From Membranipora membranacea (Eukaryota > Bryozoa > Gymnolaemata > Cheilostomatida > Membraniporidae), in assembly GCA_914767715.1 (NCBI GenBank), contig OU612070.1, forward strand, positions 8,511,501 to 8,575,500: a stretch of DNA of 64,000 nucleotides, given 5' to 3'. Position numbers and translations under genes: made by a program. Below are positions 2,701 through 60,005 of the stretch, in pieces. Under the pieces are notes generated by a model. That model had not been told where the DNA came from, made no database searches, and was given only the letters and a program-made list of their open reading frames with translations. Within the stretch, counting starts at the first letter, position 1. Every line of letters starts with the position of its first letter.

Positions 2701-3160
2701 TTTATTCAGACTTGGTAAAATGCACGTCTATTGACATACTAGAGAAAATGAATAGAAGATGTTCTGTCTTTGAAGTGTTCAGCAGATATATATGAGCCAT
2801 TGAACAGTCATTCGTTGGTCCTTTTATTTATTGTTTTGTCTTATACAGCCTCGGTCAGGTTCCATCATTTTTACCAAAAGATGGGAATAATAATAGGCCA
2901 TCCCATTTCTAAAAGAATGTAAAAAAAACAGATTGTTATATTTAGTAGTTCTGTATTTTATGGACACTATGCAGTGTTGGCAAGATTGATAGAGCTTTGC
3001 ATCTCTTCAACATGTTTATGTGAATTAGTTTTCTAGCTCTTACCTTGAATGATGAATGGAAATGTTGAGTTCTACTAATGTTTGTCACTGGTTGGTGTCT
3101 GTTTCCAATGGCTGTTCAGGAAATGTATGGTATCTATGGACTTGACCCAGTATTTATATA
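2701..3160 (-). other. Putative spliced mini-gene, copy G (inverted)
   Basis: On the minus strand: TATA box at 3,152-3,160, exon 1 ending at 3,044, intron 3,043-2,909 (135 bp), exon 2 from 2,908, AATAAA at 2,706-2,701. As in copy A, the exon 2 ORF has an early stop after about 25 codons. Confidence 0.5.
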
Positions 3161-7030: not shown

Positions 7031-7651
7031 GTCAGTTAAAAAAACTTGAAAACCATGATGTGACAATAGTACCTAAACATTGTTTGATGTACAGAGAGTT
7101 GGCTCCATTATTTTCATTTTTTTATTTCATTCGATTACTAAATGAATTTGGGTGATTGCCAGACTGTAAACAATTTTCTTTCAAATGTTCTCAAGGAATA
7201 TCAATGCACTTATCAATCATGCTGTCTAATTCCGAGCAGAATGCTGGCACTAGATATGGGAGGGAGGCTTTTAATATTGTTGAATTACAAAAGTGGCAAC
7301 GAAGTCGTCATGACTCAATTTTGTTTTTGTTCTATGGTTTGTCAGAAAGATGTGAGAAATTCCGGCCCAGAGAAATGAGATTGAGTCAGCATTCCTAAGG
7401 AAATTTAAGCCTTTCTTTGAATTGATTTTCTCTCGCACAGATCCGCTGTTGAAAAAGCTGCCAAATTTTGCGGCCAACTTTTTGCATTGTGAAATAAGAC
7501 GATACCTCTTTTTGTCGATTATTGATAATGATTTGTCAATATCATGGATAATTAACTTCAATCAATGTCTGAGTCACCATAGCAATGTCACGCTGCTAGA
7601 TATCTGTAGCCGCGTGACAAGGCTAGAGTCGCCAGATGCAAACTAGCTGTG

Positions 7652-8111
7652 TATATAAATACTAAGTCAAGTCCATAGATACCATATATTTCCTGAACAG
7701 CCATTGGAAACGGACACCGACCAGTAACAGACAGTAGTAGAACTCAACATTTCCATTCATCATTCAAGGTAAGAGCTAGAAAACTAATTCACATAAACAT
7801 GTTGAAGAGATGCAAAGCTCTATCAATCTTGCCAACACTGCATAGTGTCCATGAAATACAGAACTACGAAATATAACAATCTGTTTTCTTTACATTCTTT
7901 TAGAAATGGGATGGCCTATTATTATTCCCATCTTTTGGTAAAAATGATGGAACCTGACCGAGGCTGTATAAGACAAAACAATAAATAAAAGGACCAACGA
8001 ATGACTGTTCAATGGCTCATATATATCTGCTGAACACTTCAAAGACAGAACATCTTCTATTCATTTTCTCTAGTATGTCAATAGACGTGCATTTTACCAA
8101 GTCTGAATAAA
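7652..8111 (+). other. Putative spliced mini-gene, copy A
   Basis: A TATATAAAT box (7,652-7,660) is followed at the usual distance by a predicted first exon (about 7,683-7,768) without any ATG. It ends in a strong donor, CAAG|GTAAGA. The intron (7,769-7,903, 135 bp) ends in a pyrimidine-rich tract and TTTTAG. Exon 2 starts at 7,904 with two overlapping ATGs (7,906 and 7,911). AATAAA lies at 8,106-8,111. The second ATG opens a short ORF that in this copy stops early, after about 25 codons, because a GAA-type codon is TAA. What is seen is the ordered set of signals; transcription is inferred. Function unknown. Confidence 0.5.
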
Positions 8112-8220
8112 ATGTACTAATATTTTGTTTAATGATTTATTGTCATTTTAAATGGTTGCAATGAAATACAGCAAGTAACCAAAAATAAAGGTGATATTCA
8201 CTATTTATAGTTGGCGTGAA

Positions 8221-8244
8221 GCAAGGAGTCTTTACTCCTTGTGC
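8221..8244. repeat. Short perfect stem-loop downstream of mini-gene A
   Basis: CAAGGAGT and ACTCCTTG form an eight-pair stem with a four-base loop about 110 bp beyond AATAAA. Also at about 15,061-15,084, 24,325-24,348, 31,051-31,074 and 2,570-2,593 (inverted). Imperfect in F (about 35,430-35,450) and lost in H. Confidence 0.5.
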
Positions 8245-8709
8245 TATATTTCTGATTCTATATAGATGCAGAAGAAAGTTGCTACATTTGATAATACTTG
8301 CTTGCTATTAGTTGGTGAAACTAAAGACCCACTATGATATTGATAACCGACTAACTTATAATCAGGCTTGCCTCTTAGCGCATATGTGTGGGTTCAGTCT
8401 ATTTCAGATCATGAAACACAGCTCCCCTTTAATAGCAGTAGAATGGGTAACGTGTTGTTCCAACATCATGCCAGCTGATATACTTTACTTTCACTTTTTG
8501 AACTAGAGACGGGTTTAACAATATTTTGTTGAGTAAAGTGATTGATAGACATATCTATGAAATCTTCCCATGCGTTGTGCAATGGCAAACCACACCGTTT
8601 GGCATGCTAATGATACGTCTATCGACAGACCAGTAAATTGGGGTTGTGGACTAGCATCTCTACCTACGTCTCTGTCATTGGCCAGTCTGGTACCATAGAG
8701 CACAACTGA

Positions 8710-8892
8710 TTGGTCAATGCTTCTTGCTCATTGCTCATTGGTCTGTTACTGAGCAGTTGGTTTGTGTGGTCAACGGAGCCACATCCACACATGGCCTGGG
8801 AAGACAATTCCATGAATTATGTAGCTCTGTCCAATAACACCTTTATGAAAGTATTTCTCAGTTACAATGTCGATGGCACAATTGTCAAATAA
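8710..8892 (+). CDS. 60-residue secretory-like ORF, copy A
   Basis: Starts MVNAS, followed by about 15 hydrophobic residues and a polar tail ending VDGTIVK. Equivalent frames are open at 1,919 (minus), 15,549 and 31,235; frameshifted at the end in the copy at 24,811. In the diverged copies near 18,430 and 35,880 the frame carries a 24-bp in-frame insertion and then a TGG-to-TAG stop. Differences between open copies are mostly amino-acid changing, which argues against strong protein selection. No promoter or Kozak evidence specific to this ORF. Confidence 0.22.
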   Translation: MVNASCSLLIGLLLSSWFVWSTEPHPHMAWEDNSMNYVALSNNTFMKVFLSYNVDGTIVK

Positions 8893-9534
8893 CCTACATC
8901 AGCAGGGTGGTATCAAGGCGGGCTAGTGGTTCTTCCCAAAATTCTGTGGCCAGCTGTCACTTGGTCTGAGGCAGGTCTGATGTCTTTGCACACCAGTACA
9001 TCTTAGTCTGTGCTCTAAAACAGACTCACATATCAGGAAGGGCTTCACCAATTTAGACAGCGCCAACATCTAAAAAAACATTGTAATGGAATGTTTATTT
9101 TACAAGAATCAAACGAATGCTATTTCTTCATCACATATCTATACCTACAAACAAGTGTGTTGTAACCTGGAAAATCACTTGAATTAAAATTACTATCCCT
9201 GGGTGGGCTGCACCTAAAGAGAGACGCAAGTTGCCCGAAATCCTAGTACTGAGAGTGTGATACATCCTAGTAGACTAGAATGCATCCTAGAGGTGAAGCC
9301 ATGTGGGACATCCTAAATGTGAGTTTGCAGCAAGCTGCCAGAATCTGAAACAGGCACTAATCGCCCATCGGCAGTGACACTTCAATCTAAGGAAAATACA
9401 TGGACAAGAATAAATCCCTGTCGAGCAGCACCTACAAACACAAACAGGATAAAGTGAAACCATGAATTAACATATACAGAGATTAATTATTGAATTTTTG
9501 CAAGGATATTTCTCAATAAAGCATCAGCTATGTG

Positions 9535-11062: not shown

Positions 11063-13394
11063 TTACTGACTTAAATTGCAAATTAATGGGTGAAGTAAGC
11101 CGTTGTTTAATTTGTTATTGGTTTCAAGATTTCATAGCGCAGTCAGGCAAAAGAAGTGTAAAAAATATAATAAGCGCACCTTCAACTGCTTTTACTACAC
11201 ATATGTGGTTGAAGATAGGACTGTGATTCAGCCAATTCTTCTATTTTTTTCCAAAACATTTTTTGAAAAAGAGATATGAAGGACTGGATTGGGTTTCTTT
11301 TATTGAACAAAAAACTTTGCTTCTACAACTTAGGACTTGGGCAAAAACATCTTCGTTTCAAAGCCGTGACGTCACATTATTAATTTTTTAATGTATATGA
11401 ATTAATGCATGACAGAACAAATTAACAAAAAAATCCTTTGAACTTGATCTCCATTTTTTTGGACTACTGAATATCGCCAATATTTACACAGGTATGTTTA
11501 ATGTCGTTTTCAGGAGTTTAACTAGTCATGCGATGGAAAGGCAATGATTCTCCGCATTAGCAATCTGGCAGGTTATTCATGTTCCTAAAACCTATTAAAA
11601 ATGAGAAGTTGTGAAATGTTGTAGCCTCAGAAACACATTGGGTGAACACAGCACATGATCATGTTCAGAACTGTCCCTAATGACCTAGTGCGTAACTAGG
11701 TAGTCACGCTAACAAGCCATTCGCCGTTCGATCCTCAATACTATTCGCCAGACATCTTTCAAGTTTATCTCGAAAAGATGAATATACTGAATCAGACATG
11801 TTGACTGATTCCGAACAGAATTCTGGCACTTGGTGAGTGTTGGAGGGTCGTAATGTTGATGAATTAGGGATAGAGGAGCCATGAGTGGCCACAAGACTGC
11901 CAATGAAGTCATGCCATGCTGGAACATGCTGCTTGGGCAGTCTATTCTTCTGCCCATTGATTGAAAAAAGAACGAAAATAACGATATGACATATTAAATG
12001 GATAGGCCAAAAATTCTCAAACTCACGTTACACTCGTAATTGTTAATTGAATGTTGTTGAAATAGAAAGGCATTGGATTATGTTATTTAAGTGTTTCTTA
12101 TGCAGTTTCACCTGAATTTCAAGATTACATATAAAGCGAACCTGTATCAGATTTAATGTATTTGATGAAAAGACATATTTACAAAATCTCAACAGCCCTA
12201 AAATGGAACCAAGTCAGTTACTTTTTGTTTCTAGCCTGAAACACCACATCTCTCTTACAAAAAAAGAAATATTATCTTTCACGCATCCCATTAGAGGATG
12301 ATAGCGAACACGATCTTATAAGCTGGACAGAATATACAAGAAATGGATCAGCAAGTATTCCATTCCCAGCAAAACATGGTGGTGTCACGCAGGGCATCCG
12401 ACCTAAAATGCCCCTTTGCCTCAGGGGAATAAGTTCGTAGACCCGTACTGTTACCAGAAAAAGAAATCAAGCAACATCAGGGGTTTTCTCCCATCGCAAT
12501 CACAGGGTATCAAGACTATCAATGGCCGTAAGCTTTTTTATGCATGAAATGGATAATCACATTTAATTATGGTTGTAATCAAATGTCTCATGATAGCCAT
12601 AGATAGTCCGGAAGATATCACATATCACTGATCTTGTCCCAGGAAACCTCGAATCACAGCAAATCACAGTCAATACACTGAATAGTCCTAATCAAGTTTT
12701 GATATGAGTAAGTGACATGCCGGATTCAACATTGTCAGATTTACAAAAAGCCCATTTCCTGATAAATTAGTATTGCACTCCCTGTTCAAAGCGATGTCAC
12801 CAAAGCTTTAGAAAGACAGGAATTACCTTTTTTTGCTATCCGTAAAATTAATGCATGACAGAACAAAAAAATTCTGAAGTTAATGTCCATTATTTGATGG
12901 GAAACTGAATATCATCAACATATTGTTATCATTTTTAGGAGCTTAATTAGTCTGCAATGACATGATAAAGTGCACAATATTTAGCTCCATTAGAAATTCG
13001 GCAGGTCCAGTTCCTGAAGATATCCTTAAGCCTTCAAAATGTGAAGTTATTAAATGTTTTAGCCCCAGAAGCATACAAGGTGAACACAGCATATGGACAT
13101 GATCAGAACTGTCCCTCATGAGCTAGTGCGTAACTAGGCAATCCTGCTAACAGGCTACTTACCAATGATTGATTCTTTATTTGTCACACAATTTTTAACA
13201 AAAAATTGGGGAGATAAAACTTAGATTGCCACTTTGTGAAGAAATAGTAAAAAATAAGAGGATGATACTAAAAAAAAAAAGTCTACGATGAAAGCAGTTT
13301 GCTACTCAAGATCTACCCTCAGGAACCAGCTATCACAGTATTGATAACATTGATATAGGGTCTAATAAAACTGTTACAGAACGGAAAAGCTGGC

Positions 13395-13860
13395 AAAGTA
13401 TATGCTAAGAAGCAACATAGACGGCAAAGTGTTTTAAAATATACAGGCATTGTCTGCATTTTGACTCAACTGATGTGGCTTGTTTATATTTTAGAAAATC
13501 ATGGTTCGGAATCAATGTGTACTTCTAGGTAAAAAACATCATCTGCTTTTTGAATAGCACAGTTATCAATATAGTTGAGGAAAAACAGGTTGATCACGGC
13601 TTGTGGTAAAAATCGTTTCATGTGTCTTGGTTGGAGTCAGTAATAGATCGCTATTATCACAAAGTATGCAAATTCTATTAACTTCTTCTTGGTATAACAT
13701 AAAATCACTATAAGACTGAATATTTCCTATAATAACCGTGTCATCGGCATATTTTTGCACCGTGACACTTGAGGTAGCAGAAGTGATAAAATCAGTATAT
13801 ATCGAGAAAAGCAGTGATGACAAAACTGTACCCTGAGGAGTATTTAGTATATTGAGTGCG
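13395..13860 (-). pseudogene. Decayed RT piece, copy B
   Basis: Open for 85 codons (13,823-13,566) through the YADD motif, then stopped and frameshifted as in the other copies. Confidence 0.65.
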
Positions 13861-14491
13861 GTCAGTTAAAAAAACTTGAAAACCATGATGTGACAATAGT
13901 ACCTAAACATTGTTTGATGTACAGAGAGTTGGCTCCATTATTTTCATTTTTTTATTTCATTCGATTACTAAATGAATTCGGGTGATTGCCAGACTGTAAA
14001 CACTTTTCTTTCAAATTTTCTCAAGGAATATCAATACACTTATCAATCATGCTGTCTAATTCCGAGCAGAATGCTGGCACTAGATATGGGAGGGAGGCTT
14101 TTAATATTGTTGAATTACAAAAGTGGCAATGAAGTCGTCATGACTCAATTTTATTATTGTTCTATTGTTTGTCAGAAAGATGTGTGAAACACAGAGAAAT
14201 TCCGGCCCAGACAAAAGAGATTGAGTCAGCGTTCTTAAGGGAATTTAAGCCTTTCTTTGAATTGATTTGCTCTCGCACAGATCCGCTGTTGAAAAAGCTG
14301 CCAAATTTTGCGGCCAACTTTTTGCATTGTGAAATAAGACGATACCTCTTTTTGTCGATTATTAATAATGATATGTCGATATCATGGATAATTAACTTTA
14401 ATCAATGCCTGAGTCACCATAGCAATGTCACGCTGCTAGATATCTGTAGCCGTGTGACAAGGCTAGAGTCGCCAGATGCAAACTAGCTGTG

Positions 14492-14951
14492 TATATAAAT
14501 ACTGGGTCAAGTCCATAGATACCATACATTTCCTGAACAGCCATTGGAAACAGACATCAACCAGTAACAGACAGTAGTAGAACTCAACATTTCCATTCAT
14601 CATTCAAGGTAAGAGCTAGAAAACTAATTCACATAAACATGTTGAAGAGATGCAAAGCTCTATTAATCTTGCCAACACTGCATAGTGTCCATAAAATACA
14701 GAACTACGAAATATAACAATCTGTTTTCTTTACATTCTTTTAGAAATGGGATGGCCTATTATTATTCCCATCTTTTGGTAAAAATGATGGAACCTGACCG
14801 AGGCTGTATAAGACAAAACAATAAAAACAAGGACCAACGAATGACTGTTCAATGGCTCATATATATCTGCTGAACACTTCAAAGACAGAACATCTTCTAT
14901 TCATTTTCTCTAGTATGTCAATAGAGATGCATTTTACCAAGTCTGAATAAA
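14492..14951 (+). other. Putative spliced mini-gene, copy B
   Basis: TATATAAAT at 14,492-14,500, exon 1 about 14,522-14,608, intron 14,609-14,743 with GTAAGA donor and TTTTAG acceptor, exon 2 from 14,744, AATAAA at 14,946-14,951. Exon 2 keeps an uninterrupted 40-codon ORF. All signals intact. Confidence 0.5.
14751..14873 (+). CDS. 40-residue ORF in exon 2 of mini-gene B
   Basis: This is the second ATG of exon 2 (G at -3 and +4). It encodes about 40 residues with a conserved central segment MEPDRGCIRQN and a hydrophobic end, WLIYIC. The overlapping upstream ATG at 14,746 encodes only 11 residues. I recognise no family. The frame is open in copies B, D, E and H. Most differences between copies change residues, so selection for protein is not shown; it could equally be chance. 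Confidence 0.25.
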   Translation: MAYYYSHLLVKMMEPDRGCIRQNNKNKDQRMTVQWLIYIC

Positions 14952-15548
14952 ATGTACTAATATTTTGTTTAATGATTTATTGTCATTTTAAATGGTTGCA
15001 ATGAAATACAGCAAGTAACTAAAAATAAAGGTGATATTCACTATTTATAGTTGGCATGAAGCAAGGAGTCTTTACTCCTTGTGCTTTATTTCTGATTCTA
15101 TATAGATGCAGAAGAAAGTTGCTACATTTGATAATACTTGCTTGCTATTAGTTGGTGGAACTAAAGACCCACTATGATATTGATAACCAACTAACTTATA
15201 ATCAGGCTTGCTTCTTAGCGCATATGTGTGGGTTCAGTCTATTTCAGATCATGAAACACAGCTCCCCTTTAATAGCAGTAGAATGGGTAACGTGTTGTTC
15301 CAACATCATGCTAGCTGATATACGTTACTTTCACTTTTTGAACTAGAGACTGGGTTAACAATATTTTCTTGAGTAAAGCGGTTGATATAATATCAATGAA
15401 ATCTTCCCATGCGTTGTGCAATGGCAAACCACACCGTTTGGCATGCTAATGATACGTCTATCGACAGACCAGTAAATTGGTGTTGTTGACTAGAATCTTT
15501 ACCTACGTCTCTGCCAACGGCCAGTCTGGTACCATAGATCACAACTGA

Positions 15549-15731
15549 TTGGTCATTGCTTCTTATTCATTGCGCGTTGATCTGTTACTGAGCAGTTGGT
15601 TTGTGTGGTCAACGGAGCCACGACCACACATGGCCTGGGAAGACAATTCCATGAATTATGTAGCTCTGTCCAATAACACCTTTATGAAAGTATTTCTCAG
15701 TTACAATGTCGATGGCACAATTCTCAAATAA
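15549..15731 (+). CDS. 60-residue secretory-like ORF, copy B
   Basis: Same ORF family, with MVIASYSLRVD at the N-terminus, so charged residues interrupt the hydrophobic stretch. Confidence 0.18.
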   Translation: MVIASYSLRVDLLLSSWFVWSTEPRPHMAWEDNSMNYVALSNNTFMKVFLSYNVDGTILK

Positions 15732-16427
15732 CCTACATCAGTACAGGACAATACAGGAGTAGAGAATTGCAGGGTGGTATCAAGGCGGGCTAGTGGTTCT
15801 TCCCAAAATTCTGTGGCCAGCTGTCACTTGGTCTGAGGCAGGTCTGATGTCTTTGCACACCAGTACATCTTAGTCTGTGCTCTAAAACAGACTCACATAT
15901 CAGGAAGGGCCTCACCAATCAGACAGCGCCAACATCTAAAAAGACATTGTAATGGAATGTGTATTTTGCAGGAATCAAACGAATGTAATTTCTTCATCAA
16001 ATATCCATATTTACAAACAGGCGTGTTGTAACCTTGAAAATCACTTGAATTAAAATTACAATCCCTGTTTATGACAAAACAGAGGGTTGGCTGCTCCTAA
16101 AGAGAGACCCAGGTTGCCCAAAATCCTCATACTGAGAGTGTGATAGACCCTAGTAGACTAAAATGCATCCTAGAGGTGAAGCCATGTGGGACATCCTAAA
16201 TGTGAGTGTGCAGCAAGCTGCCAGAATCTGAAACAGGCACTAATCGCCCATCGGCAGTGACACTTTGATCTAAGGAAAATACATGGACAAGAATAAATCC
16301 CTGTCGAGCAGCACCTACAAACACAAACAGGATAATGTGAAAGCATGAATTAACATATACAGAGATTAATTATTGAATTTTTGCTAGGATATTTCTCAAC
16401 AAAGCATCCGCTATTCACATTATATAT

Positions 16428-16483
16428 GGTTGGTCACGCTTCAAACATTCTAACTGCTCGGCCATTCCAGCCCGCTGAAGCTT
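16428..16483 (-). ncRNA. tRNA-like 5' half, monomer B
   Basis: Same fragment, reading GGCCGAGCAGTTAG on the minus strand. Confidence 0.33.
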
Positions 16484-18115
16484 ACTGATTTAAATTGGAA
16501 ATGAATGGGTAAAGTAAGCTTTTATTTAATTTGTTATTGACTTCAAGCTTTTATAGCACAGTCAGGCAAAAGAAGTGTAAAAAATATAATAAGCGCATCT
16601 TCAACTGCTTTTACTACACATATGTGGTTGGAGATAGGACTGTGATTCAGCCATTGCTTCTATTTTTTTCCAAAATACTTTTTGAAAAAGTGATATGAAG
16701 CACTGGATATGAGTTTTCCATTGTTCCTAGCTGTCGAGTCAGTTGTGGTAGAACTTGGTAGTTTTATAGTCATGAGAGTAAAAATGTAAAAGGTCACAGT
16801 TTTCCCCCAACCCGTTACCATCAGACCATACATTACTGTAAACGTAACATCACCTTCAAGTTGGCAGTGCTGACAGTGATACAGAGACAGAGATTCTCAA
16901 ACTCACGTTACACTCGCAATTGTAAATTGAATGTTGTTGAAATAGAAAGGCATCGGATTATGTTATTTAAGTGTTTCTTATGCAGCAATACCTGAATTTC
17001 AAGATTACATATGAAACGAACCTGTATCAGATTCAATGTATTTGATAAAAAGACATATTTACCAAATCTCAATACCCTTAAAATGGAACCAAGTCAGTTA
17101 CTTTTTGTTTCTAGCCTGAAACACCACATCTCTCTTATAAAAAAAGAAATATTATCTATCACGCATCCCATTAGAGGATGATAACGAACGCGATTTTATA
17201 AGCTGGACAGAATATACATGAAACGGATCAGCAAGTGTTCCATTCCCAGCAAAACATAGTGGTGTCACGCAGGGCATCCGACCTAAAACGCTCCTGTGCC
17301 TTATTGGTATAAGTTCGTAGACCCGTACTATTACCAGAAAAAAAAACAAAAAAAAACAAGCAACATCATGGTTTTTCTCCCATTGCAATCACAGGGTATC
17401 AGGACTATCAATGGCTGGGAGCTTTTTTATGCATGAAATGGATATCCACATTTAATTATGGTTATAATCAAATTTCTCATGATAGGCATAGATAGTCCAG
17501 AAGATATCACATATCACTGATCCTGGCCCAGGAAACCTCGAATCACAGCAAATCACAATCAATACACTGAATAGTCCTAATCAAGTTTTGATATGAGTAA
17601 GTGACATGCCGGACTCGAGATTGGCAGATTTGCAAAAAAACCCATTTCCTGATAAATTAGTATTGCACTCTCTGTTCAAAGCGATGTCACCAACGCTTCA
17701 GGAAGACGGGAATTGCCTTTTCTTTATCTATTAGTAAAATTGATGCTTGACAAAACAACTAGATAAAAAAATGATCAGGACACTCCCTTATGGTCTAGTT
17801 AGTAGCTAGGTTACCATTCTAACAAGCTACCTGCCAATGGTTCCTAAACATTGTTTGATGTATAGACTGTTGCCGCGATTATTTTCCTCTTTTTCTCCCT
17901 TTTATTGGCTAGGCGAGTTTTGGGTGACTGCCAGACTTAAAAAAAAATTCTTTCAAAATTCCACTTATGTTGAATAATTTGTTTGTTAGTTGATCAATTT
18001 TAATGATCATGATAATTAACTTTAATCAATGACTGAGTCATCATAGCATTGTCACGCCGCTAGATTTATGTAGCCGCGTGCTAAGGCTAGAGTCGCCAGA
18101 TACAAACTAGCTGTG

Positions 18116-18124
18116 TATATAAAT
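18116..18124 (+). promoter_or_regulatory. TATA box of truncated mini-gene copy C
   Basis: The TATATAAAT motif and its upstream flank are kept, but matching sequence stops a few bases later. Unrelated pyrimidine-rich sequence follows (about 18,126-18,300), so exons 1 and 2 are missing in this monomer. Confidence 0.45.
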
Positions 18125-19127
18125 CATACCTGACAAGTCTCCCTTTTTGGTAGGGAGCCTCCCAGTTTTTAGGGGTATTTTCCACCTCCTCCCTATCTCC
18201 CTTTTTCCTCCCTTTTTTCAGCCTCCTTCACCATGAAGACTTTTAAAGCTTCTCATTGGGAAAAAAAAATGTTTTCCTACCCCCACAGTACATATACCTA
18301 GAAATAACTGCCTATTAACATACTATCTCTCCTCAATCTTCCAACGCGTTGTGCAATCGCAAACCACAAGGCTGGCTTGCAAATGATACATCTATTGACA
18401 AACCAGCAAATTGGTGTTGTGGCTCCTACGCCTACGCCTGACATTGGCCAGTGTGGTACCAAAGAGCACATTTTATCGGTCATTGCTCCTTGCTCATTGC
18501 TCAATGGTCAGTTACTGAGCGTCTATCTATCACAAGGTATGGAGAGTTGGTGTGTGTAGCAAACGGAGCCACACCAACACATGGCCTGGGAAGACAATTC
18601 CATGCATGCTCTGTCTGGTAACACCTTTCTGACAGTTACAATGTTGGTGGCAAAATTGCCACATAACCTAAATCAATGCAGAACCATATGGGAGTAAAAA
18701 ATTGCAGGGTGATATTCAGGGAGGCTAGTGGTTCTTACCAAGTGAATGGTATTACTTCATCAATTATCAATACTTACAAACGGGCGGGTTGGAACCTGGA
18801 AAATAAAGTTACAATCCCTGTTTTTGACAAAACCCAGGGTGGGCTGCCCCTAAAGAGGGACAAAAGTTGCACGAAGTCCTCGTACTGAGAGTGTGATACA
18901 TTCCAGTAGACTAGAATGCATCATAGAGGTGAGGCCATGGGGGCATTCTAATTGTGAGTTTGCAGCAAGCTGCCAAAATCTGAAACAGGCACTAATCGCT
19001 CGTTGGCAGTGACACTTTGATCTGAGCACAAAGGGAAAAACACATGGACGAGAATAATTCCCTGTCGAGCAGAACCTACAAACACAAACAGTTTAAAGTG
19101 AATGCAGGATTTTCTCAATAAAGCATC

Positions 19128-21239: not shown

Positions 21240-23130
21240 CAGTTTGCTACTCAAGACCTACCAGACGCAAGTTTAGAAATAAAATCATGAAAGAGGTGGT
21301 CATCATCATGTAATAAAAGCATACAGTATCTTTTAAAACGCTCCGATATTCGGTTGTCTAGAGTCCCTACTGATGCACCTTAAGAGTTTGCTATAGGATA
21401 AATCTTTCTGAGTGCATTCTTATCATAGTCAAATAGATTGTTAAAATACACAGGAAGTCAGTATAAAAGGTATGACTCGTTGAAAGAACGGAAAAGCTGG
21501 CAAAGTATTTGCAAAGAAGCACCATAGAAAGCAAAACGTTTTAAAATATACATGCATTGTCTGCATTTTGACTCAACTGATGTGGCTTGTTTATATTACT
21601 AGACGACCCCACCCAGTTTGCGTATAAGTCTGGTAGGTCTACTGAAGATGCTCTAATCACTCTGATCGACTCGGTAACTGAACATCGGGTCCGAGCTCTT
21701 TTTATAGACTTTTCTAGTGCTTTTAACACCATCAATCCTGCCACAATAATCAGCAAACTCGATAGCTACAACATCAATCCTAACATCATCAACTGGCTAT
21801 ATAACTTCCTTACAAATAGAACACAGCGAGTTATTACATCACTCAACACATCAAAATCATTGAGCACTTCGACTGGAAGCCCTCAGGGATGCGTCATCAG
21901 CCCACTGCTATTCTCCTTTTATGTTGTCGATATGCCATCAACAAGCAACATCAAACTAGTAAAATATGCCGACGACACTGTGATCATTGAATTGTTGACA
22001 GAAAACCAGCCATCTGAACTTCAAACAATGACTAATACCATCAACTCATGGTGCTCGGATAATGACCTAATACTCAATGCAAAGAAAACAAAAGAAATGG
22101 TCATGTGCAATGCAAGGGAAAACCCAAGCTACCCACAACTGCTTGTAAACAATACTTCAATTGAGCAGGTAGAACAATTTACATACTTAGGCACCATTAT
22201 TACCAAAAAACTGGAATTTACTCTGAACACCTTGAAAACTACAGCGAAAGCTCGCCAAAGGCTACATATAATCGCCAAGCTATACCATCTCGGTGTCACT
22301 GAGAAACTAATAACGACCTGCTGCTGAAGTCCTTCATAGAGTCAGTAATCACCTACCACCTGGTTGTGCTATATAGTCATCTGAGCGCAGACTCTAAGAA
22401 AAAGTTAAAATCTGTGATAAGAACTGCAGGTTACCTATCAGGCGAACTTACGTTCACACCCGTAGACGACCTTTACTCTAATATACTGAAAGTAAAGAGC
22501 CTCCGTATGATTGCCACCGAAGATGAACCACTACTCCGTCTTAACCAGCTGCCGTCAGGCAGATATCAACCAGTCAAGTTCCGCGTGCAGATCCGTGCCA
22601 AATATTTTAGAGCAGAATGTATCAAATACCTAAATAGTGTCTTCCAAAAGTAATAGTATTTTTTTTATGGTCTTATCATTTTATTTATTTTTACAGAATC
22701 AACAGTTTTAATAAGTTTTACAGAGCACCATACAGAGACAGTTTTATTTCTCAGAGATTGAGACCAAATATAAACATACATACATGCATACATACATTTT
22801 AGAAAATCATAGTTCGGAATCAATGTGTACTCCTAGGTATAGTTATCAATATAGTCGAGGAAAAACAGGTGGATCACGGCTTGTGGTAAAAATCGTTTCA
22901 TGTGTCTTGGTTGGAGTCAGTAAAAGATAGCCATTATCACAAAGTATGCAAAATCTATTAACTTCTTCTTGGCATAACATAAAATCACTATAAGACTGAA
23001 TATTCACTATAATAACCGTGTCATCGGCATATTTTGGCACCGTGACACTTGAGGTAGCAGAAGTGATAAAATCGGTATATATTGAGAAAAGCAGTGGTGA
23101 CAAAACTGCACCCTGAGGAGTATTTAGTAT
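21240..23130 (-). pseudogene. Decayed RT piece, copy D, split by a younger retrotransposon
   Basis: The RT piece reads on the minus strand from about 23,130 (YADD at about 23,020-23,040) down to 22,796. It is interrupted by the element at 21,598-22,795 and resumes from 21,597 to about 21,240 with its C-terminal part. Confidence 0.65.
21598..22795 (+). mobile_element. 5'-truncated CR1/L2-like non-LTR retrotransposon
   Basis: About 1.2 kb inserted into the RT piece of monomer D. The first frame (to a stop at 22,325-22,327) shows FAYKSGRSTEDA, FIDFSSAFNTI (motif A), STGSPQGCVISPLLF (motif B region), KYADDTVII (motif C) and YLGTIIT. A frameshift near 22,320 is followed by a second open stretch (to 22,653) with the RT C-terminal region. 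The 3' end is a CATA-type short tandem repeat with no poly-A, as is usual for CR1/L2 elements. Both flanks match the uninterrupted site in other monomers, with ATT present at both ends. It is dead: no endonuclease, and a broken frame. Confidence 0.85.
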
Positions 23131-23756: not shown

Positions 23757-24215
23757 TATATAAATACTGGGACACGTCCATGGATACCATACATTGACTG
23801 AACAGTCATTAGAAACAGACACCAACCAGTAACAGACAGTAGTAGAACTCAACATTTCCATTCATCATTCAAGGTAAGAGCTAGAAAACTAATTCACATA
23901 AACATGTTGAAGAGATGTAAAGCTCTATCAATTTTGCCAACACTGCATAGTGTCCATTAAATACAGAACTACGGAATATAACAATCGCTTTTTTTTCTTT
24001 CTTTTAGAAATGGGATGGCCTATCATTTTTCACATCTATTGGTAAACATTATGTCACCTGACCGAGGCTGTATGAGACAGAACAATAAAGAAAAGGACCA
24101 ACGAATGACTCTACAATGGCTCATATATATCTGCTGAACACTTCAAAGACAGAACATCTTCTATTCATTTTCCCTAGTATGTCAATAAAACTGCATTTTA
24201 CCAAATCTGAATAAA
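23757..24215 (+). other. Putative spliced mini-gene, copy D
   Basis: TATATAAAT at 23,757-23,765, exon 1 about 23,787-23,873, intron 23,874-24,007 (134 bp) with GTAAGA donor and TTTTAG acceptor, exon 2 from 24,008, AATAAA at 24,210-24,215. More diverged in exon 2 than A, B or E, yet it keeps the splice signals and the 40-codon frame. Confidence 0.5.
24015..24137 (+). CDS. 40-residue ORF in exon 2 of mini-gene D
   Basis: Same length and stop position as the copy B ORF despite about six residue changes, including loss of the first Glu of the MEPDRG segment (reads MSPDRG). Confidence 0.22.
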   Translation: MAYHFSHLLVNIMSPDRGCMRQNNKEKDQRMTLQWLIYIC

Positions 24216-30481: not shown

Positions 30482-30941
30482 TATATAAATACTGGGTCAA
30501 GTCCATAGATACCATACATTTCCTGAACAGCCATTGAAAACAGACACCAACCAGTAACAGACAGTAGTAGAACTCAACATTTCCATTCATCATTCAAGGT
30601 AAGAGCTAGAAAACTAATTCACATAAACATGTTGAAGAGATGCAAAGCTCTATTAATCTTGCCAACACTGCATAGTGTCCATAAAATACAGAACTACGAA
30701 ATATAACAATCTGTTTTCTTTACATTCTTTTAGAAATGGGATGGCCTATTATTATTCCCATCTTTTGGTAAAAATGATGGAACCTGACCGAGGCTGTATA
30801 AGACAAAACAATAAAAACAAGGACCAACGAATGACTGTTCAATGGCTCATATATATCTGCTGAACACTTCAAAGACAGAACATCTTCTATTCATTTTCTC
30901 TTGTATGTCAATAGAGATGCATTTTACCAAGTCTGAATAAA
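30482..30941 (+). other. Putative spliced mini-gene, copy E
   Basis: TATATAAAT at 30,482-30,490, exon 1 about 30,512-30,598, intron 30,599-30,733, exon 2 from 30,734, AATAAA at 30,936-30,941. Nearly identical to copy B, its higher-order partner. Confidence 0.5.
30741..30863 (+). CDS. 40-residue ORF in exon 2 of mini-gene E
   Basis: Appears identical to the copy B ORF, as expected for its higher-order partner. Confidence 0.25.
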   Translation: MAYYYSHLLVKMMEPDRGCIRQNNKNKDQRMTVQWLIYIC

Positions 30942-32165: not shown

Positions 32166-34865
32166 GCTTACTGATTTAAATTGGAAATGAATGGGTAAAA
32201 TAAGCTTTTATTTAATTTGTTATTGACTTCAAGCCTTTATAGCACAGTCAGGCAAAAGAAGTGTAAAAAATATAATAAGCGCATCTTCAACTGCTTTTAC
32301 TACACATATGTGGTTGAAGATAGGACTGTGATTCAGCCAATTCTTCTATTTTTTGCCAAAACACTTCTTGATAAAGTGATATGAAGCACTGGATATGAGT
32401 TTTCCATTGTTCCTAGCTGTCGAGTCAGTTGTGGTAGAACTTGGTAGTTTTATAGTCATGAGAGTAAAAATGTAAAAGGTCACAGTTTTCCCCCAACCCG
32501 TTACCATCAGACCATACATTACTGTAAACGTAACATCACCTTCAAGGTGGCAGTGCTGACAGTGATACAGAGACAGAGATTCTCAAACTCACGTTACACT
32601 CGTAATTGTAAATTGAATGTTGTTGAAATAGAAAGGCATCGGATTATGTTATTTAAGTGTTTCTTATGCAGCAATACCTGAATTTCAAGATTACATATGA
32701 AGCGAACCTGTATCAGATTCAATGTATTTGATAAAAAGACATATTTACCAAATCTCAATACCCCTAAAATGGAACCAAGTCAGTTACTTTTTGTTTCTAG
32801 CCTGAAACACCACATCTCTCTTATAAAAAAAGAAATATTATCTATCACGCACCCCATTAGAGGATGATAACGAACACGATTTTATAAGCTGGACAGAATA
32901 TACATGAAACGGATCAGCAAGTGTTCCATTCCTAGCAAAACATGGTGGTGTCACGCAGGGCATCCGACCTAAAACGCTCCTGTGCCTTATTGGTATAAGT
33001 TCGTAGACCCGTACTATTACCAGAAAAAAAACAAAAAAAAACAAGCAACATCATGGTTTTTCTCCCATTGCAATCACAGGGTATCAGGACTATCAATGGC
33101 TGGGAGCTTTTTTATGCATGAAATGGATATCCTCATTTAATTATGGTTATAATCAAATTTCTCATGATAGGCATAGATAGTCCAGAAGATATCACATATC
33201 ACTGATCCTGGCCCAGGAAACCTCGAATCACAGCAAATGACAATCAATACACTGAATAGTCATAATCAATTTTTGATATAAGAAAGTGACATGCCGGATT
33301 CAACATTGTCAGATTTGCAAAAAGCCCATTTCCTGATAAATTAGTATTGCACTCTCTGTTCAAAGCGATGTCACCAACGCTTCAGGAAGACGGGAATTGC
33401 CTTTTTTTATCTATTAGTAAAATTGATGCTTGACAAAACAACTAGATAAAAAAATTTCAGAAGTTTACGTCCCTTATTTGTTTGGAAACTGAATATCACC
33501 AACATTTATTCAGATATTGTTATCATTTTGAGGAGTCACGCAATATCATGATTAAGTGCAATGTTTCACTCCATTAGCAATTTGGCAGGTCCAGTTCCTG
33601 AAGATATCCTCAAGCCTACAAAAATGAGATTATTAAATGTTTTAGCCTCAGAAGCATACAAGGTGAACACAGCACATGGACATGATCAGAACTGTCCCTA
33701 ATGAGCTAGTGTGTAAATAGGCAATTCTGCTAACAAGCTACTTACCAATGGTACCTAAACATTGTTTGATGTATAGAGAGTTGGCTCGATTATTTTATTT
33801 TTTTATTTTATTCAATTGCTAAATGAATTTGGGTGGTTGCCAGACTGTAAAAAATTTTCCTTCAAATTTTCTCAAGGAAGATCAATACACTCATCAATCG
33901 TGTTGTCTAATTTCGAGCAGAATTCTGGCACTGGGTATGTGAGGGAGGCTCTTAATATTGCTGAATTACAACAACGATGGCAATGAAGTCACGGTATGCA
34001 GGGACGTGCTACATGGACTCATATTCTCCCATCAATAGGAAATAGGAAACGAGAAAACTAGATACAGTATAAATGGAAATTTTACATTGTTTTCAACTGT
34101 CAAAGTAGCTGATTTATAATCTTTGTGGTATCTTTTGTGAGCTTGTTGTTGGGGTAGTGCTTGGTCTTTTAATGTTTATAATCATATGAGTCAGTCTCCA
34201 TTCCAGCCATTGCCTTCAAACCGCAGTAAATTAATTATTAAATGAAATTAAATTGGCTTTTTATATAAAGATTGGTGCATGACAGAACGAGTTGACAAAA
34301 AACTACCTGCACTTGATGTTTATAATTTTTTAGCGACTGGTTATCACCAACATATACAAAGATATTGATTGTCATTTTGATGAATTCAAATAGTCATGCA
34401 ATGTCATTTTAGAAACGCAATGTCCATTGGCAATTTAGCAGGTTTAGTTGCTGAAGATATATATGTTCCTACGAAAAAAGAGATTGTGAAATATTTGTAG
34501 ACTCAGAAACCCAAAGGGTGAACACAGCACACGGAAATGATCAGGACACTCCCTTATGGTCTAGTTAGTAGCTAGGTTACCATTCTATGGTTCCTAAACA
34601 TTGTTTGATGTATAGACTGTTGCCGCGATTATTTTCCTCTTTTTCTCCCTTTGATTGGCTAGACGAGTTTTGGGTGACTGCCAGACTTTAAAAAAAATCC
34701 TTTTAAAATTCCACCTATGTTGAATAATTTGTGTGTTAGTTGATCAATTTTAATGATCATGATAATTAACTTTAATCAATGACTGAGTCATCATAGCATT
34801 GTCACGCCGCTAGATTTCTGTGGCCGCGTGCTGAGGCTAGAGTCGCCAGATACAAACTAGCTGTG

Positions 34866-35322
34866 TATATAAATACTGGGACACGTCGATAGATACCATA
34901 CATTTCCTGAACAGCCATTGGAAACAGACACCAACCAGTAACAGACAGTAGTAGAACTCATATTCTCCATTGATCATTCAAGATAAGAGCTAGAAATTTA
35001 AATCACATAAACATGTTGAAGTGCTGTAAATCCCTATCAATTTGGCAAACACTGCATAGTATCCATAAAATACAGACCTACAAAATGTAATACTTTGTTT
35101 TTTCCTTCTTTTAGAAAAACCATGGCCTGTTTTTATTCCCTTCTATTGGTAATAATGATGGAACCTGACCGAGGCTGTATAAGACCGAACAATAAAGAAA
35201 AGGACCAACGAATGACTCTACATTGACTTCTATATATCTGCTGAAAACTTGAAAGAGAGAATATCTTCTATTCATTTTCTCTAGTATGCCAATAGACGTG
35301 CATTTTACCAAATCTGAATAAA
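34866..35322 (+). pseudogene. Mini-gene copy F with mutated splice donor
   Basis: TATATAAAT at 34,866-34,874 and AATAAA at 35,317-35,322 are kept. The donor that reads CAAG|GTAAGA elsewhere is CAAG|ATAAGA here (about 34,978-34,987), so normal splicing should fail. The exon 2 ORF is also shortened by a TGG-to-TGA type change. Probably a dead copy. Confidence 0.5.
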
Positions 35323-36290
35323 ATGTACTAATATTTTGTTTAATTATTTATTGTCATTTTAATTGGTTGCAATGAAATACAGCAGGTAACTAACAATAAT
35401 TGATATTTAATATTTATAAATTGCACAAAACAAGGAGATTTTACTCCTGGCATGAAGTGTACTTTCTATTTCTAAATTGACGCAGTAGAAATTTGTTTCA
35501 ATTGATAATATTGGCTTGCTATTAGTTGGTGGCGTTGAAGACCCACTATTTGTTAAAAATTGATTAACTAACTTATAACCAGGCTTGTTTATAGCACATA
35601 TGTGGGAAAATTTTTAGGTTAAATTTATTTCAAATCAAGAAGCACAGCTCTCCTTTTATAGCAGCAGAACGGCTGACGTAATGTTGCATCAGCATGTCAA
35701 TTGATATATTATCCCTTCACTTTTTGAAATAGAGAAGGGTTGACAGTATTTTTCTGTGTAAAGCTCTTGCCAGACAGAGCTAGGAAATCTTCCAACGCAT
35801 TGTGCAATCGCAAACCACAAGGCTGGCGTGCAAATGATACATCTATTGACAGACCAGCAAATTGGTGTTGTGGCTCCTACGCCTACGCCTGACATTGGCC
35901 AGTCTGGTACCAAAGAGCACATTTTATCGGTCATTGCTCCTTGCTCATTGCTCAATGGTCAGTTACTGAGCGTCTATCAATCACAAGGTATGGAGAGTTG
36001 GTGTGTGTAGCAAACGGAGCCACACCAACACATGGCCTGGGAAGACAATTCCATGCATGCTCTGTCTGGTAACACCTTTCTGACAGTTACAATGTTGGTG
36101 GCATAATTGCCACATAACCTACATCAATGCAGAACCATATGGGAGTAAAAAATTGCAGGGTGATATTCAAGGAGGCTAGTGGCTGAGGCCAGCTGTCACT
36201 TGGTCTGAGGCAGGTCAGAAAGCTTTGCACATCAGTAGATCTTAGTCTGTGCTCTAAAACAGACTCACATATCGGGAAGGGGCTTCACAA

Positions 36291-37590
36291 ATCTGGAGCA
36301 GATACAATGAAACTCACCACAATTAAGGAAAAGACTATTATTTTATACTTTGTCGTTCAAATCGAAAAAACTCATCCGAAATCAGTGAGATTTTCATGTG
36401 TAAGAGTTTTTGTGTCAGTGTAGTAATTGACATGGGTCCAATTTGAGGTTGGGTTCCATGTTCCAAGTAGGAGATTGGAAACAATCAGGTGAAACTGCTG
36501 ATTGCCAGCAAATTAGCAGAGACATTTTGTGAAGCTTGAGTCGAAAGAATTAATGTACATTCCATGAATCGATGAAATATCTATGTACCATGGATCAACA
36601 TAAGAAAATAAAAAGGTTGAATTGTCTCCACCTTGACATTAAGTAGACAACTCCTAACTATTAACTGGGTTGCAAGTGAGTATCACTGATTCGGGAGTCA
36701 TAAGCATCACATAAGGAGAAGGCTCGCCAATGTGTTCTCTGGTATTGTCCATTGGAAAATGAATTGTAGCTAAGCAAATGTAAAATAATAGCGATATTTC
36801 TTACTTGTTAAGATCAGCGTTTCAAAGGTATTATTGTAAAATGGGTAAAGTTTTTTATGGAGCAGTACAAAAATGGGTCTATTTAAATTATAAATAAGAT
36901 TAGGGCAAACTTTCATCTTAATTACATTTATGACCTTTGTATACCGTGAATATATATATTTCAACAACAAATTATATGTTTTTATATGCCTTTGAAAGCC
37001 TTAGATTATGTTTGAATACAGTTTGCTTTATTTTAGGGTAAATCAATTTTACCAAATGAGGACATAAAAAGTATATTTCATTTAAAATAAGTGTGCAACC
37101 ATCATATATCAGCTGAAAGTGACCATGCTGAAAAATTACTGCTGCTACTACAACGTGTAAACGGCTAAAAATATGCATCTGATATAGCACCTTATTACCA
37201 TTCGTATCATAGACCGCATTTGAGTTGCTCCCCTCTACTGACACGCCTTCGGCCTTTGTCAGTAGAGAGGGGGAGGGTAATTCCAATGGGGGCAAAATGA
37301 ATCAAACTTGACCTAAGTAGGACTTGTCATTTGAGGGAGTTTGTATGGTTATCTATTTTGCTCTTTTCACTCTCAAATGATAGCCGAAGACATTTCCCAC
37401 TGTCACATCATGTCATGTTGTGTCTTTACTATCTGTCACTCGTCTCTTATTTAAAACATATTTTAGTCAAACAAGAAGTATTGCAAATAGAATTATAGAA
37501 AGAAAGCTTCATATCAACAACTTTGTCAAAGTTGCCTCTTTTTTCTTTCAAATAAAGAGCAATAATATTTCTCAACCACATAGAGGATGC
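36291..37590. repeat. Optional block S1, inverted copy at the orientation switch
   Basis: The second orientation switch of the array lies at the inner end of this copy: its first bases match the 26,880-26,900 region inverted. Confidence 0.55.
37213..37291. repeat. G/C-rich hairpin in S1 (inverted copy)
   Basis: Reverse-complement copy. The outer terminal pairs on one side have drifted, while the inner stem and loop are kept. Confidence 0.55.
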
Positions 37591-38970
37591 TTTATTGAGA
37601 AAATCCTGCATTCACTTTAAACTGTTTGTGTTTGTAGGTTCTGCTCGACAGGGAATTATTCTCGTCCATGTATTTTTCCCTTTGTGCTTAGATCAAAGTG
37701 TCACTGCCAACGAGCGATTAGTGCCTGGTTCAGTTTTTGGCAGCTTGCTGCAAACTCACAATTAGAATGCCCCCATGGCCTAACCTCTATGATGCATTCT
37801 AGTCTACTGGAATGTATCACACTCTCAGTACGAGGACTTCGGGCAACTTTTGTCCCTCTTTAGGGGCAGCCCACCCTGTGTTTTGTCATAAACAGGGATT
37901 GTAACTTTATTTTCCAGGTTCCAACCCGCCTGTTTGTAAGTATTAATAATTGATGAAGTAATATCATTCATTTGGTTCCTGTAAAGTAAACATTTCATCA
38001 GAATTGTTTTTAGAAGTCGGCCCTGCTTTTGGAGCCCCTTCCCGATATGTGAGTCTGTTTTAGAGCACAGACTAAGATCTACTGATGTGCAAAGATTTCT
38101 GACCTGCCTCAGACCAAGTGACAGCTGGCCTCAGCCACTAGCCTCCCTGAATATCACCCTGCAATGTTTTACTCCCGTATGGTTCTGCATTGATGTAGGT
38201 TATGTGGCAATTGTGCCACCAACATTGTAACTGTCACAAAGGTGTTACCAGACAGAGCATGCATGGAATTGTCTTCCCAGGCCATGTGTTGCTGTGGCTC
38301 CATTGGCTACACACACCAACTCTCCATTCCTTGTGATAGATAGATGCTCAGTAACTGACCATTGAGCAATGAGCAAGAAGCAATGACCGATAAAATGTGC
38401 TCTTTGGTACCACACTGGCCAATGTCAGGCGTAGGCGTAGGAACCACAACACCAATTTGCTGGTCTGTCAATATATGCATCATTTGCATGCCCAGCCTTG
38501 TTGTTTGCAATTGCACAACGCCTTGGAAGATTTCGTAGCTCTGTCTGGCAACACCTTTACTCAGAAAAATATTGTTCAACCGTTCTCTATTTCAAAAAGT
38601 AAAGGGATAATATATCAACTGACATGCTGATGCATCAACGCGTCAGCCGTTCTGCTGCTATGAAAGGAGAGCTGTGTTTCATGATCTGAAATTGACTGAA
38701 CCCACACATATGCGCTAAGAGGCAAGCCTGATAATAAGTTAGTCAATTATTAATATCTTAGTGGGTCTTGAGTCCAACCAACTAATAGCAAGCAAGTATT
38801 ATCAAATGAAGCTACTTGCTTCTGCATCTATATAAAAACAGAAATATAGCACAAGGAGTGCTTCAGGCCAATTATAAAGAGTGAATATCACCTTTATTTT
38901 TAGTTACTTGCTGTATTTCATAGCAACCAATAAAAATGACGATAAATCATTAAACAAAATAATAGTACAT

Positions 38971-39431
38971 TTTATTCAGATTTGGTGAAATGCACTTTCA
39001 TTGACATACTAGGGAAAATGAATAGAAGATATTCTGTCTTTGAAGTGTTCAGCAGATATATATGAGCCATTGTACAGTCATTCGTTGGTCCTTCAATTTA
39101 ATGTTTTGACTTATACAGCCTCGGTCAGGTTCCATCATTTCTACCAAAAGAAGGGAATAATAATAGGCCATCCCATTTCTAAAAGAATGTAAAAAAAACC
39201 AGATTGTTATATTTCGTAGTTCTATATTTTATGGACACTATGCAGTGTTGGCAAGATTGATAGAGCTTTACATCTCTTCAAAATGTTAATGTGAATTAGT
39301 TTTCTAGCTCTTACCTTGAATGATGAATGGAAATGTTGAGTTCTACTACTGTCTGTTACTGGTTGGTGTCTGTTTCCAATGACTGTTCAGTAAATGTTTG
39401 GTATCTATGGACGTGTCCCAGTATTTATATA
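38971..39431 (-). other. Putative spliced mini-gene, copy H (inverted)
   Basis: On the minus strand: TATA box 39,423-39,431, exon 1 ending at 39,315, intron 39,314-39,179 (136 bp), exon 2 from 39,178, AATAAA at 38,976-38,971. The 40-codon exon 2 ORF is open. A stem-loop found downstream of the other copies is disrupted here. Confidence 0.5.
39049..39171 (-). CDS. 40-residue ORF in exon 2 of mini-gene H
   Basis: Open over the same 40 codons on the minus strand, with several substitutions (for example His to Leu before the LLV motif) and the MEPDRGCI core kept. Confidence 0.22.
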   Translation of the reverse strand: MAYYYSLLLVEMMEPDRGCISQNIKLKDQRMTVQWLIYIC

Positions 39432-39679
39432 CACAGCTAGTTTGTATCTGGCGACTCTAGCCTTGTCACGCGGCTACAGAAATCTAGCGGCGTGACAATG
39501 CTATGGTGACTCAGGCATTGATTAAAGTTAATTATCCATGATATTGACAAATCATTATTAATAAATGGCAAAAAAGTATCGTCTTATTTCACAATGCAAA
39601 AAACTGGCCGCAAGATTTGGCAGCTTTTCAACAGCGGATCTGTGCGAGAGCAAATCAATTCAAAGAAAGGCGTAAAGGC

Positions 39680-41100: not shown

Positions 41101-41494
41101 TCCTTAGGAACGCTGACTCAATCTCATTTCTCTGGGCCGGAATTTCTCTGTGTTTCACACATCTTTCTGACAAACAATAGAACAAAAATAAAACTGTGTC
41201 ATGACGACTTCATTGCCACTGTTGTAATTCAACAATATTAAGAGCCTCTCTCCCATACCTAGTGCCAGCATTCTGCTGGGAATGAGACAACATGATTGAT
41301 GAGTGTATTGATATTCCTTGAGAAAATTTGCAAGAAAATTGTTTACAGTCTGGCACTCACCCAAATTCATTTAGTAATCGAATGAAATAAAAAAATGAAA
41401 ATAATGGAGCCAACTCTCTGTACATCAAACAATGTTTAGGTACTATTGTCACATGATGGTTTTCAAGTTTTTTAACTGACCGCACTCAATATAC

Positions 41495-41960
41495 TAAATA
41501 CTCCTCAGGGTACAGTTTTGTCACCACTGCTTTTCTCGATATATACTGATTTTATCACTTCTGCTACCTCAAGTGTCACAGTGCTAAAATATGCCGATGA
41601 CACGGTTATTATAGGAAATATTCAGTCTTATAGTGATTTTATGTTATACCAAGAAGAAGTTAATAGAATTTGCATACTTTGTGATAATAGCGATCTTTTA
41701 CTGACTCCAACCAAGACACATGAATCGATTTTTACCACAAGCCGTGATCAACCTGTTTTTCCTCAACTATATTGATAACTGTGCTATTCAAACAGCAGAT
41801 GATGTTTTTTACCTAGGAGTACACATTGATTCCGAACTATGATTTTCTAAAATATAAACAAGCCACATCAGTTGAGTCAAAATGCAGACAATGCATGTAT
41901 ATTTTAAAACGTTTTGCCGTCTATGGTGCTTCTTAGCAAATACTTTGCCAGCTTTTCCGT
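41495..41960 (+). pseudogene. Decayed RT piece, copy H
   Basis: Plus-strand copy with PQGTVLSPLLFSIYT, KYADDTVIIG and, in a shifted frame, a YLGV-like segment. Here the PQG and LSPLLF motifs are in frame with YADD. Confidence 0.65.
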
Positions 41961-43271: not shown

Positions 43272-43922
43272 AGACTTTGTTTGAGGCTGCTCTTTTGTAT
43301 CACAGCTTATTCTCCATATTTTATTCTATCATGTGAGCGATTTTCAGGAAGGTTTTGAAGGAAGTTATGGCCTCTCAAACCTCCAAGGTGACGGCAATTT
43401 AGTTGCAGTAAGAATCAGCCGTCAATCCCTAGGGTACGTCACAACCATCATACTTATTGCGATACACTAATAAATATGTTTATGATCAAAATGTTCAGAT
43501 ATGTAACTGTCTTGAACCCAGGTCCAAATGGCTTTGCAGGCAACGCCGCTAACACTTAGCTATATTGCCTACTGGCTCAGTGTGTTGGTCCAAGATGGTA
43601 GCGTCGTTGCCTATAGGTATGGGGACCTGGGTTCGATTCCCACCCAGGTCTGAATTTTGATCATCATCTTATCTGTGTTATTATTAGTTTATTAACTAAT
43701 AACTCATAATAAGTATGACCATAGACAAAACACATGTCTATGGTTGTGACGTACCCCAGGGGAAACATTCGCTTATTCCCAATGCCGATTGAAGGCAATC
43801 ACCCTGGAGGTTTGAGAGGCCATAACTTCCTCAATATTTGGATTCTAAAGCTGAAAATCGCTCACATGATAGAATAAAATATGGAGAATAAGATGTGATA
43901 CAAAAGAGCAGCCTCAACCTCT
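43272..43922. mobile_element. Fold-back element flanked by TTAA, with tRNA-like centre
   Basis: TTAA occurs immediately on both sides (43,268-43,271 and 43,923-43,926). The paralogous site at about 676-690 has a single TTAA in otherwise matching flanks, so this is a clean insertion of 651 bp. The two halves are inverted copies of one another for nearly the whole length: the outer 70 bp match closely, and inner parts near 43,380-43,470 match 43,735-43,830. No transposase ORF. TTAA duplication is typical of piggyBac-type transposition, but the termini do not show the usual CCC start, so the family is open. The centre carries tRNA promoter-like boxes. Confidence 0.8.
43574..43652 (+). ncRNA. tRNA-like sequence at the centre of the fold-back element
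   Basis: An A-box-like TGGTCCAAGATGG (43,586-43,598) precedes a perfect B-box GGTTCGATTCC (43,630-43,640). The other arm holds a decayed mirror copy near 43,505-43,555. No convincing acceptor stem, so it is not a working tRNA gene; a tRNA-derived SINE head captured or duplicated in the element is more likely. Confidence 0.4.
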
Positions 43923-58774: not shown

Positions 58775-59752
58775 TGCTAAGATTTTTATTTATTTATTTC
58801 CGAGTCTCTTGTATGGTCTACGCCGTCAAGGGAAGTATCTATGTTGTGCTACTTATGTCCACCTAGACTCAGTCTGTGTTGGTATGCCTGATACAAGCTT
58901 GAGTCAGCTGCACTCACGACATAACCAGAGGAGAAAAGGTACTGTATCCTAGGTGTCCGGTGATTGGATTATCTACTGAAATATGAAATGAGGTTTTACA
59001 GTAACAAAGAGATTAGTCAAGTGAAAATGATGTAATAGGAACATGATTATTGAAAAGATGTTTTTGGAATCAATAAACAAATTCTTGGAAATAATAAAGT
59101 ATACTTACATATTGTTTCACTTAAAACCTCCTGCAGGTTGACAGTCGATTTTATCTATTTGTTACAGTATAATCAGCAAAAATAGGCAATGCTGTAATTC
59201 AAAAAATATTCTATATTATCAATAATTAAAATGAAAAATACAAAATGCAAGTGATTATTGTTCACTTACATTTTAAATTTGAATATGAACTCTGTTTAGA
59301 AAGTCAGCTGTTCAATTAAATGGATTAGATGAACAGAAAAACATGGTTTCTTTCAGCATAATGCTTACAACAACACAATAGAAATAATATTATTGATTTT
59401 TACTTTTGCCAAATCAAACACGATAAGTAATCAAGTATTGAAAAGATGTTTTTGGAAGCAATTAACAAATTCTCTGAAATATGCATTTCGGTAGCGCACT
59501 AAAATCAAAAGCAAGATAAATAAATAAGGTCTCAACTGGAGGTCACATATTCAATCATATTATAGGTTGTAGAAATCGATACTCACAGTCGGAGTGCAAT
59601 ACATAGTTTGCGATCTGCAGCAGGATTGTTCAGCAGCAATATTAGCCTGACACTGCATCTCACACCCTTATATTGTCGAACAATAATGATCGGAAATAAA
59701 ACTCATTCACTTTTTACCCATTCACCATTTTCAAATCAGTAACCCATCAAAC

Positions 59753-59968: not shown

Positions 59969-60005
59969 ATTTTCTAAATTTATATATAGCTCAAAACTAA
60001 TAATA

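Follow-up and report, generated by a model that had tools for sequence, protein, structure and literature searches.

A 64,000-nucleotide window of the Membranipora membranacea genome (contig OU612070.1) contains an irregular array of duplicated units, within which a short cassette of signals recurs in constant order: a TATA box, an exon lacking ATG, a strong splice donor, a short intron, an acceptor and AATAAA. Eight copies (A to H) carry the TATA box, and six of the eight have the complete cassette, D and G being broken. The explanation that we favour, in which we place about half of our confidence, is that the cassette represents the promoter and first-intron end of one ancestral gene, either non-coding or decayed, which has been passively copied, some of the present copies perhaps being still transcribed.

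The cassette is most easily followed in copy B (7652–8111, + strand). The TATA box, TATATAAA (7652–7659), is present in 8/8 copies. Putative exon 1 (7684–7768), whose start is placed about 30 bp after TATAAA, is free of ATG, as in all seven copies examined (D left out), and ends at the donor AAG/GTAAGA (10.2 bits). A splice-site scan then predicts a 135-bp GT...AG intron (7769–7903), ending at the acceptor TTCTTTTAG (7.9 bits), the G of which is at 7903. Putative exon 2 (7904–8125, the 3' end being approximate) has a short open reading frame (ORF) at 7911 and contains AATAAA at 7980, 7984 and 8106. The last of these (8106–8111) is unchanged in 7/7 copies having the region, and the overlapping pair at 7980–7989 is less conserved: its second member is retained only in A and B, and the first poly(A) signal of copy H is ATTAAA. 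Splicing, like both the start and the 3' end of the transcript, is predicted. An earlier interpretation of this DNA, made from the letters alone (the sequence-only reading), had described these elements in this order, and that description proved largely right.

When both strands were scanned at the scores of copy B, sets were recovered at 7652, 14492, 23757 and 30482 (+) and at 3160 and 39431 (−), exactly where the sequence-only reading had put them; the rest of the 64 kb yielded none. On the + strand, copy C (14492–14951) has its donor at 14609, acceptor at 14743 and AATAAA at 14946; the corresponding positions are 23874, 24007 and 24210 in copy E (23757–24215), and 30599, 30733 and 30936 in copy F (30482–30941). 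On the − strand, copy A (2701–3160) has its TATA box at 3160, donor at 3043, acceptor at 2909 and AATAAA at 2701–2706, and copy H (38971–39431) has its TATA box at 39431, donor at 39314, acceptor at 39179 and AATAAA at 38971–38976. The count of six thus stands for complete copies, but alignment adds two broken ones on the + strand. Copy G (34866–35322), the most diverged, has its TATA box at 34866–34873, the G of its acceptor at 35114 and AATAAA at 35317, and its donor GT has become AT at 34983. Copy D consists of the TATA box only (18116–18123). Immediately after it (18124–18335) homology to G breaks off, resuming about 210 bp further on, at a point whose counterpart in G is about 910 bp downstream; these 210 bp or so have no match longer than 150 bp in the self-comparison of the window.

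How often might such a set arise by chance? With splice-site weights taken from general consensus frequencies, and thresholds set initially from copy B's own scores, 60 dinucleotide shuffles (both strands, 64 kb) gave a mean of 0.05 clusters per 64 kb, or 0.00 if TATATAAA was demanded; the value of 0.05 probably understates chance, because these thresholds came from the feature itself. Lowering both splice thresholds by 2 bits raised the mean to 1.28, and lowering them by 4 bits raised it to 8.07 (largest 15). The corresponding numbers in the real window were six, six (TATATAAA demanded), six and 16. All cassette copies trace to one ancestor in our alignments, so the repetition provides no independent evidence. 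The view that a complete set is unlikely by chance therefore holds at the observed scores but not at the relaxed ones, and it concerns a single ancestral event. The ordered set is real and better than chance typically supplies, so that the ancestor can fairly be read as having had a promoter with a first intron.

Duplication and probable exchange among the units

The window is AT-rich throughout (34–39% GC in 2-kb steps). Self-comparison and TATA spacing delimit the array to 1–45113, most of which is duplicated, in both direct and inverted orientation. Kilobase-long adjoining units, as in a macrosatellite whose units each contain a promoter, are present, though irregular and partly inverted; the regular head-to-tail order of a macrosatellite is not seen, as copies A and H are inverted and the TATA spacing is uneven (3.6–6.8 kb; the six + strand TATA boxes are successively 6840, 3624, 5641, 6725 and 4384 bp apart). 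The units may possess promoter activity. Shared blocks reach 4.3 kb, and those longer than 1 kb are 78–98% identical, corresponding to a divergence of roughly 2–22%. The cassette copies sit inside such long blocks: for example, 13378–17675 is 95.8% identical over 4.3 kb to the inverted segment 1–4274.

Copy F was compared only in the self-comparison, the copy alignment and the tree of signal changes, and both D and F were left out of the comparisons of divergence and of exons with introns. In a profile against copy C, the mean identity per 60 bp was 0.93–0.96 in the cassette (14481–14960), similar values (0.90–0.98) being found over the 900 bp before it, and mostly lower ones (0.80–0.95) over the 900 bp after about 15260. 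Complete copies diverge by up to about 8% and copy G by about 13%; the suggestion that the set is kept in diverged copies is thus weak, since it applies to the former, whereas the latter has no donor.

Divergence among the copies is mosaic, in a conversion-like manner. One case involves 36292–39676 and 34756–36293: copy H resembles C and E across the cassette and G past about 8441 (in the coordinates of copy B, used from here on for positions in aligned copies). C and H differ by 6.0% in the unit, but by 19.2% (112/583) over 8441–9060, where G and H differ by only 6.6% (40/606). This pattern suggests gene conversion, or unequal exchange, among the units.

The closest organisation that we met is that of mouse Dxz4, with likeness in the size, number and divergence of units, and no homology is claimed. 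In the published account (PMC3491370), mouse Dxz4 occupies 36 kb with about seven tandem units of 3.8–5.7 kb, which diverge from one another by more than 5%; every monomer contributes the same 163-nucleotide sequence as a spliced exon, and the promoter lies outside the array, the units having no obvious promoter activity. The Membranipora array differs from this description in having a TATA-like site in each unit and some units inverted, and its splicing is only predicted. As described in the same account (PMC3491370), human DXZ4 does have sequence with promoter activity inside each monomer, to which the promoter-like site of the present units, recognised from its letters, can be likened; but human DXZ4 has 62.2% GC, neighbouring units that diverge by less than 1%, as many as about 100 units and no observed splicing, compared with 34–39% GC, roughly 2–22% divergence in blocks longer than 1 kb, and eight copies in the window.

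Searches for coding sequence, structured RNA and relatives

The sequence-only reading had allowed for a multicopy small gene; as a protein-coding gene this is not supported. The ORF in exon 2 varies in length (25 amino acids in A and B, 40 in C, E, F and H, and 34 in G), and it shows no coding constraint, the proportion of nonsynonymous changes (pN) being close to that of synonymous changes (pS) in six pairs, albeit with few synonymous changes (1.0–4.0 per pair). A substitution scan of one unit likewise found no clear coding frame (mean Z 0.02, standard deviation 0.91, 2,687 overlapping windows), and no conserved frame under purifying selection emerged; a peptide gene in exon 2 was rejected. 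No database protein shares three words with the 40-amino-acid form of copy C. A structured noncoding RNA family gained no support either: Rfam gave no match at the gathering threshold in the window, and the fold of copy B, taken in unspliced form only (7684–8125), was no better than that of shuffled sequence (z 0.08). The other options of the sequence-only reading, a functional noncoding RNA and the promoter of an element, may still apply.

The exon junction without its intron was found neither in the window (allowing up to three mismatches) nor, as an exact match, in viral contigs. Three exact cassette patterns had no match in viral contigs, and a fourth had a 20-base match in one such contig, with no similarity beyond it, which we take as chance; one pattern was absent from prokaryote genome contigs, and 13378–17700 had no match among phage records, but absence of relatives says little here because the collections searched are not aimed at eukaryote genomes. 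Among the papers listed in literature searches, no title or abstract opening describes this array, and we make no claim that it is unpublished.

Constraint and competing explanations

Changes were counted on a tree of the seven copies other than D, giving a mean of 0.257 changes per site over 7545–8368. A first mask of 50 sites (TATA box, donor, polypyrimidine tract and acceptor, and two AATAAA) held 12 changes compared with 12.9 expected, and circular shifts gave 12 or fewer changes in 52% of placements. The stretch 7981–7990, around the first AATAAA pair, changed fastest of the regions tabulated (seven changes in ten sites). A strict mask of 22 sites, comprising TATATAAA, GTAAG, the acceptor triplet and the last AATAAA, was chosen after the result of the first, and held one change (the donor of copy G) compared with 5.4–5.7 expected (P 0.033–0.035). 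The comparison of signal sites with the background rate, suggested at the outset as a way to refute a functional unit, was thus ambiguous, the rates being equal under the first mask and slower under the later one, and constraint on the signals is marginal. Between C and G, divergence was 6/85 in exon 1, 23/132 in the intron, 19/129 in the ORF part of exon 2, 8/93 in the rest of exon 2 and 56/239 just downstream (8201–8440). All exons compared with the intron in G gave P values of 0.06, 0.23 and 0.30 (with C, H and E, respectively, as reference), and exon 1 with the end of exon 2 gave 0.013, 0.064 and 0.13.

The history that we favour would begin with an ancestral unit bearing an RNA polymerase II-type promoter followed by exon 1, a short first intron and then an exon with polyadenylation signals, and presumably transcribed and spliced; its source would have been the 5' part of a gene, either one for a non-coding RNA or one that has since lost its coding portion. 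This unit, of about 4–7 kb, would then have been duplicated and inverted several times with the cassette riding along, the copies being partly homogenised by exchange between units, and the cassette being lost in at least two of the eight (D by truncation, G through its donor). The universal presence of the TATA box, and of the last AATAAA wherever its region survives, is consistent with such a history. The members of a pseudogene array, formed by tandem duplication of a decayed gene, share promoter and first-intron anatomy, do not maintain a frame and are variably truncated, all of which applies here; unlike in such arrays, no parent gene was identified and nothing in the unit was recognised as the remains of a host coding sequence. 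The missing parent weighs against passive copying, as do the strict-mask result and the exons of copy G, which are less diverged than the downstream flank (33/307 compared with 56/239 between C and G, P 0.0001; P 0.0006 with H and 0.001 with E as reference). The low-divergence block in G (7547–8200, ending near 8200), taken with the strict mask, could mean constraint, although a conversion tract accounts for this block equally well as selection, because the copies are mosaics.

Could the cassette never have been a transcription unit at all, but a chance set of TATATAAA, donor, acceptor and AATAAA in an ancestral AT-rich unit, multiplied by duplication? We regard this as unlikely, though to be taken seriously: shuffles at relaxed thresholds readily yield such sets, AATAAA is common (155 in the window), the first mask changed at the background rate, and none of the three comparisons of all exons with the intron in G was significant, but the expectation at the observed scores is very low, and the real window has no further set even at thresholds 2 bits lower. 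It is more doubtful that the units constitute a multicopy family of noncoding RNAs still under selection, in which each unit makes a short spliced and polyadenylated RNA of which the exons and promoter matter, or the transcription of which matters for the array. The slow strict-mask sites, the lack of ATG in exon 1, and the lower divergence of exon 1 and the 3' part of exon 2 than of the intron between C and G would fit with this. However, the strict mask was picked after the first had given nothing, the exon–intron contrast is weaker with H or E as reference and absent between C and H and between C and E, the single changed signal site abolishes the donor of the most diverged copy, and the region near the first AATAAA pair is the fastest-changing of those tabulated.

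A related proposal, that each unit acts as an autonomous promoter producing a short, spliced, noncoding RNA, with selection on transcription rather than on any peptide (for example, because it maintains the array in an open state or supplies small-RNA silencing), seems to us improbable. If true, a DXZ4-like system would exist outside mammals, and every unit of it would contain both splicing and a promoter; and if the cassettes are active, the eight copies, including two natural mutants (donorless G and TATA-cut D), would allow the needs of a minimal spliced unit to be compared. The first ATG lies two bases beyond the acceptor in six of seven copies, an arrangement like that of genes whose 5' untranslated region (UTR) carries an intron; even so, we consider it very improbable that the cassette supplies the promoter and a 5' UTR intron to a longer gene of several exons, the coding ones being further along the unit. 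If, on the other hand, the copies are passive, the array would provide a clean example of duplication making one ancestral set of signals mimic repeated evidence for a gene.

Other elements in the window

Reverse transcriptase (RT) sequences occur in two settings. A long interspersed nuclear element (LINE) at 21581–22650, inserted between units D and E, has an open RT frame of 248 amino acids (21581–22324; RVT_1, E 1e-27) followed by a second open frame; the RT frame had 1,360 protein matches, and of the 120 listed the best come from short contigs, with fish and a sea cucumber among the others. A shorter RT fragment (41476–41772, +; RVT_1, E 2e-8) is part of the unit itself, and has 14 relatives, 13 of them from ENA, with no confirmed relative in a scan of viral contigs. 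The arrangement seen in two units does not fit a LINE promoter, for which the cassette would lie 5' of a LINE with RT downstream on the same strand: in copy H the fragment is upstream of the TATA box at 39431 (−) and on the opposite strand, and a similar frame (13569–13865, −) is placed likewise relative to the TATA box at 14492 (+).

An older repeat, non-coding and about 330 bp long, is found at 11384–11730, 12830–13168 and eight more places, in two subfamilies about 70% alike; changes between its copies show a period of three over 11482–11661 on both strands, yet there are stops in all frames. Self-complementary stretches at 43281–43917 (about 640 bp, 66%) and 59749–59972 (224 bp, 94%) are possibly foldback elements. 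Finally, we draw attention to two exon-like frames in the right flank on the minus strand (52013–52282 and 55102–55353), with sulfotransferase similarity below the Pfam cut-off, which possibly belong to one gene beside the array.
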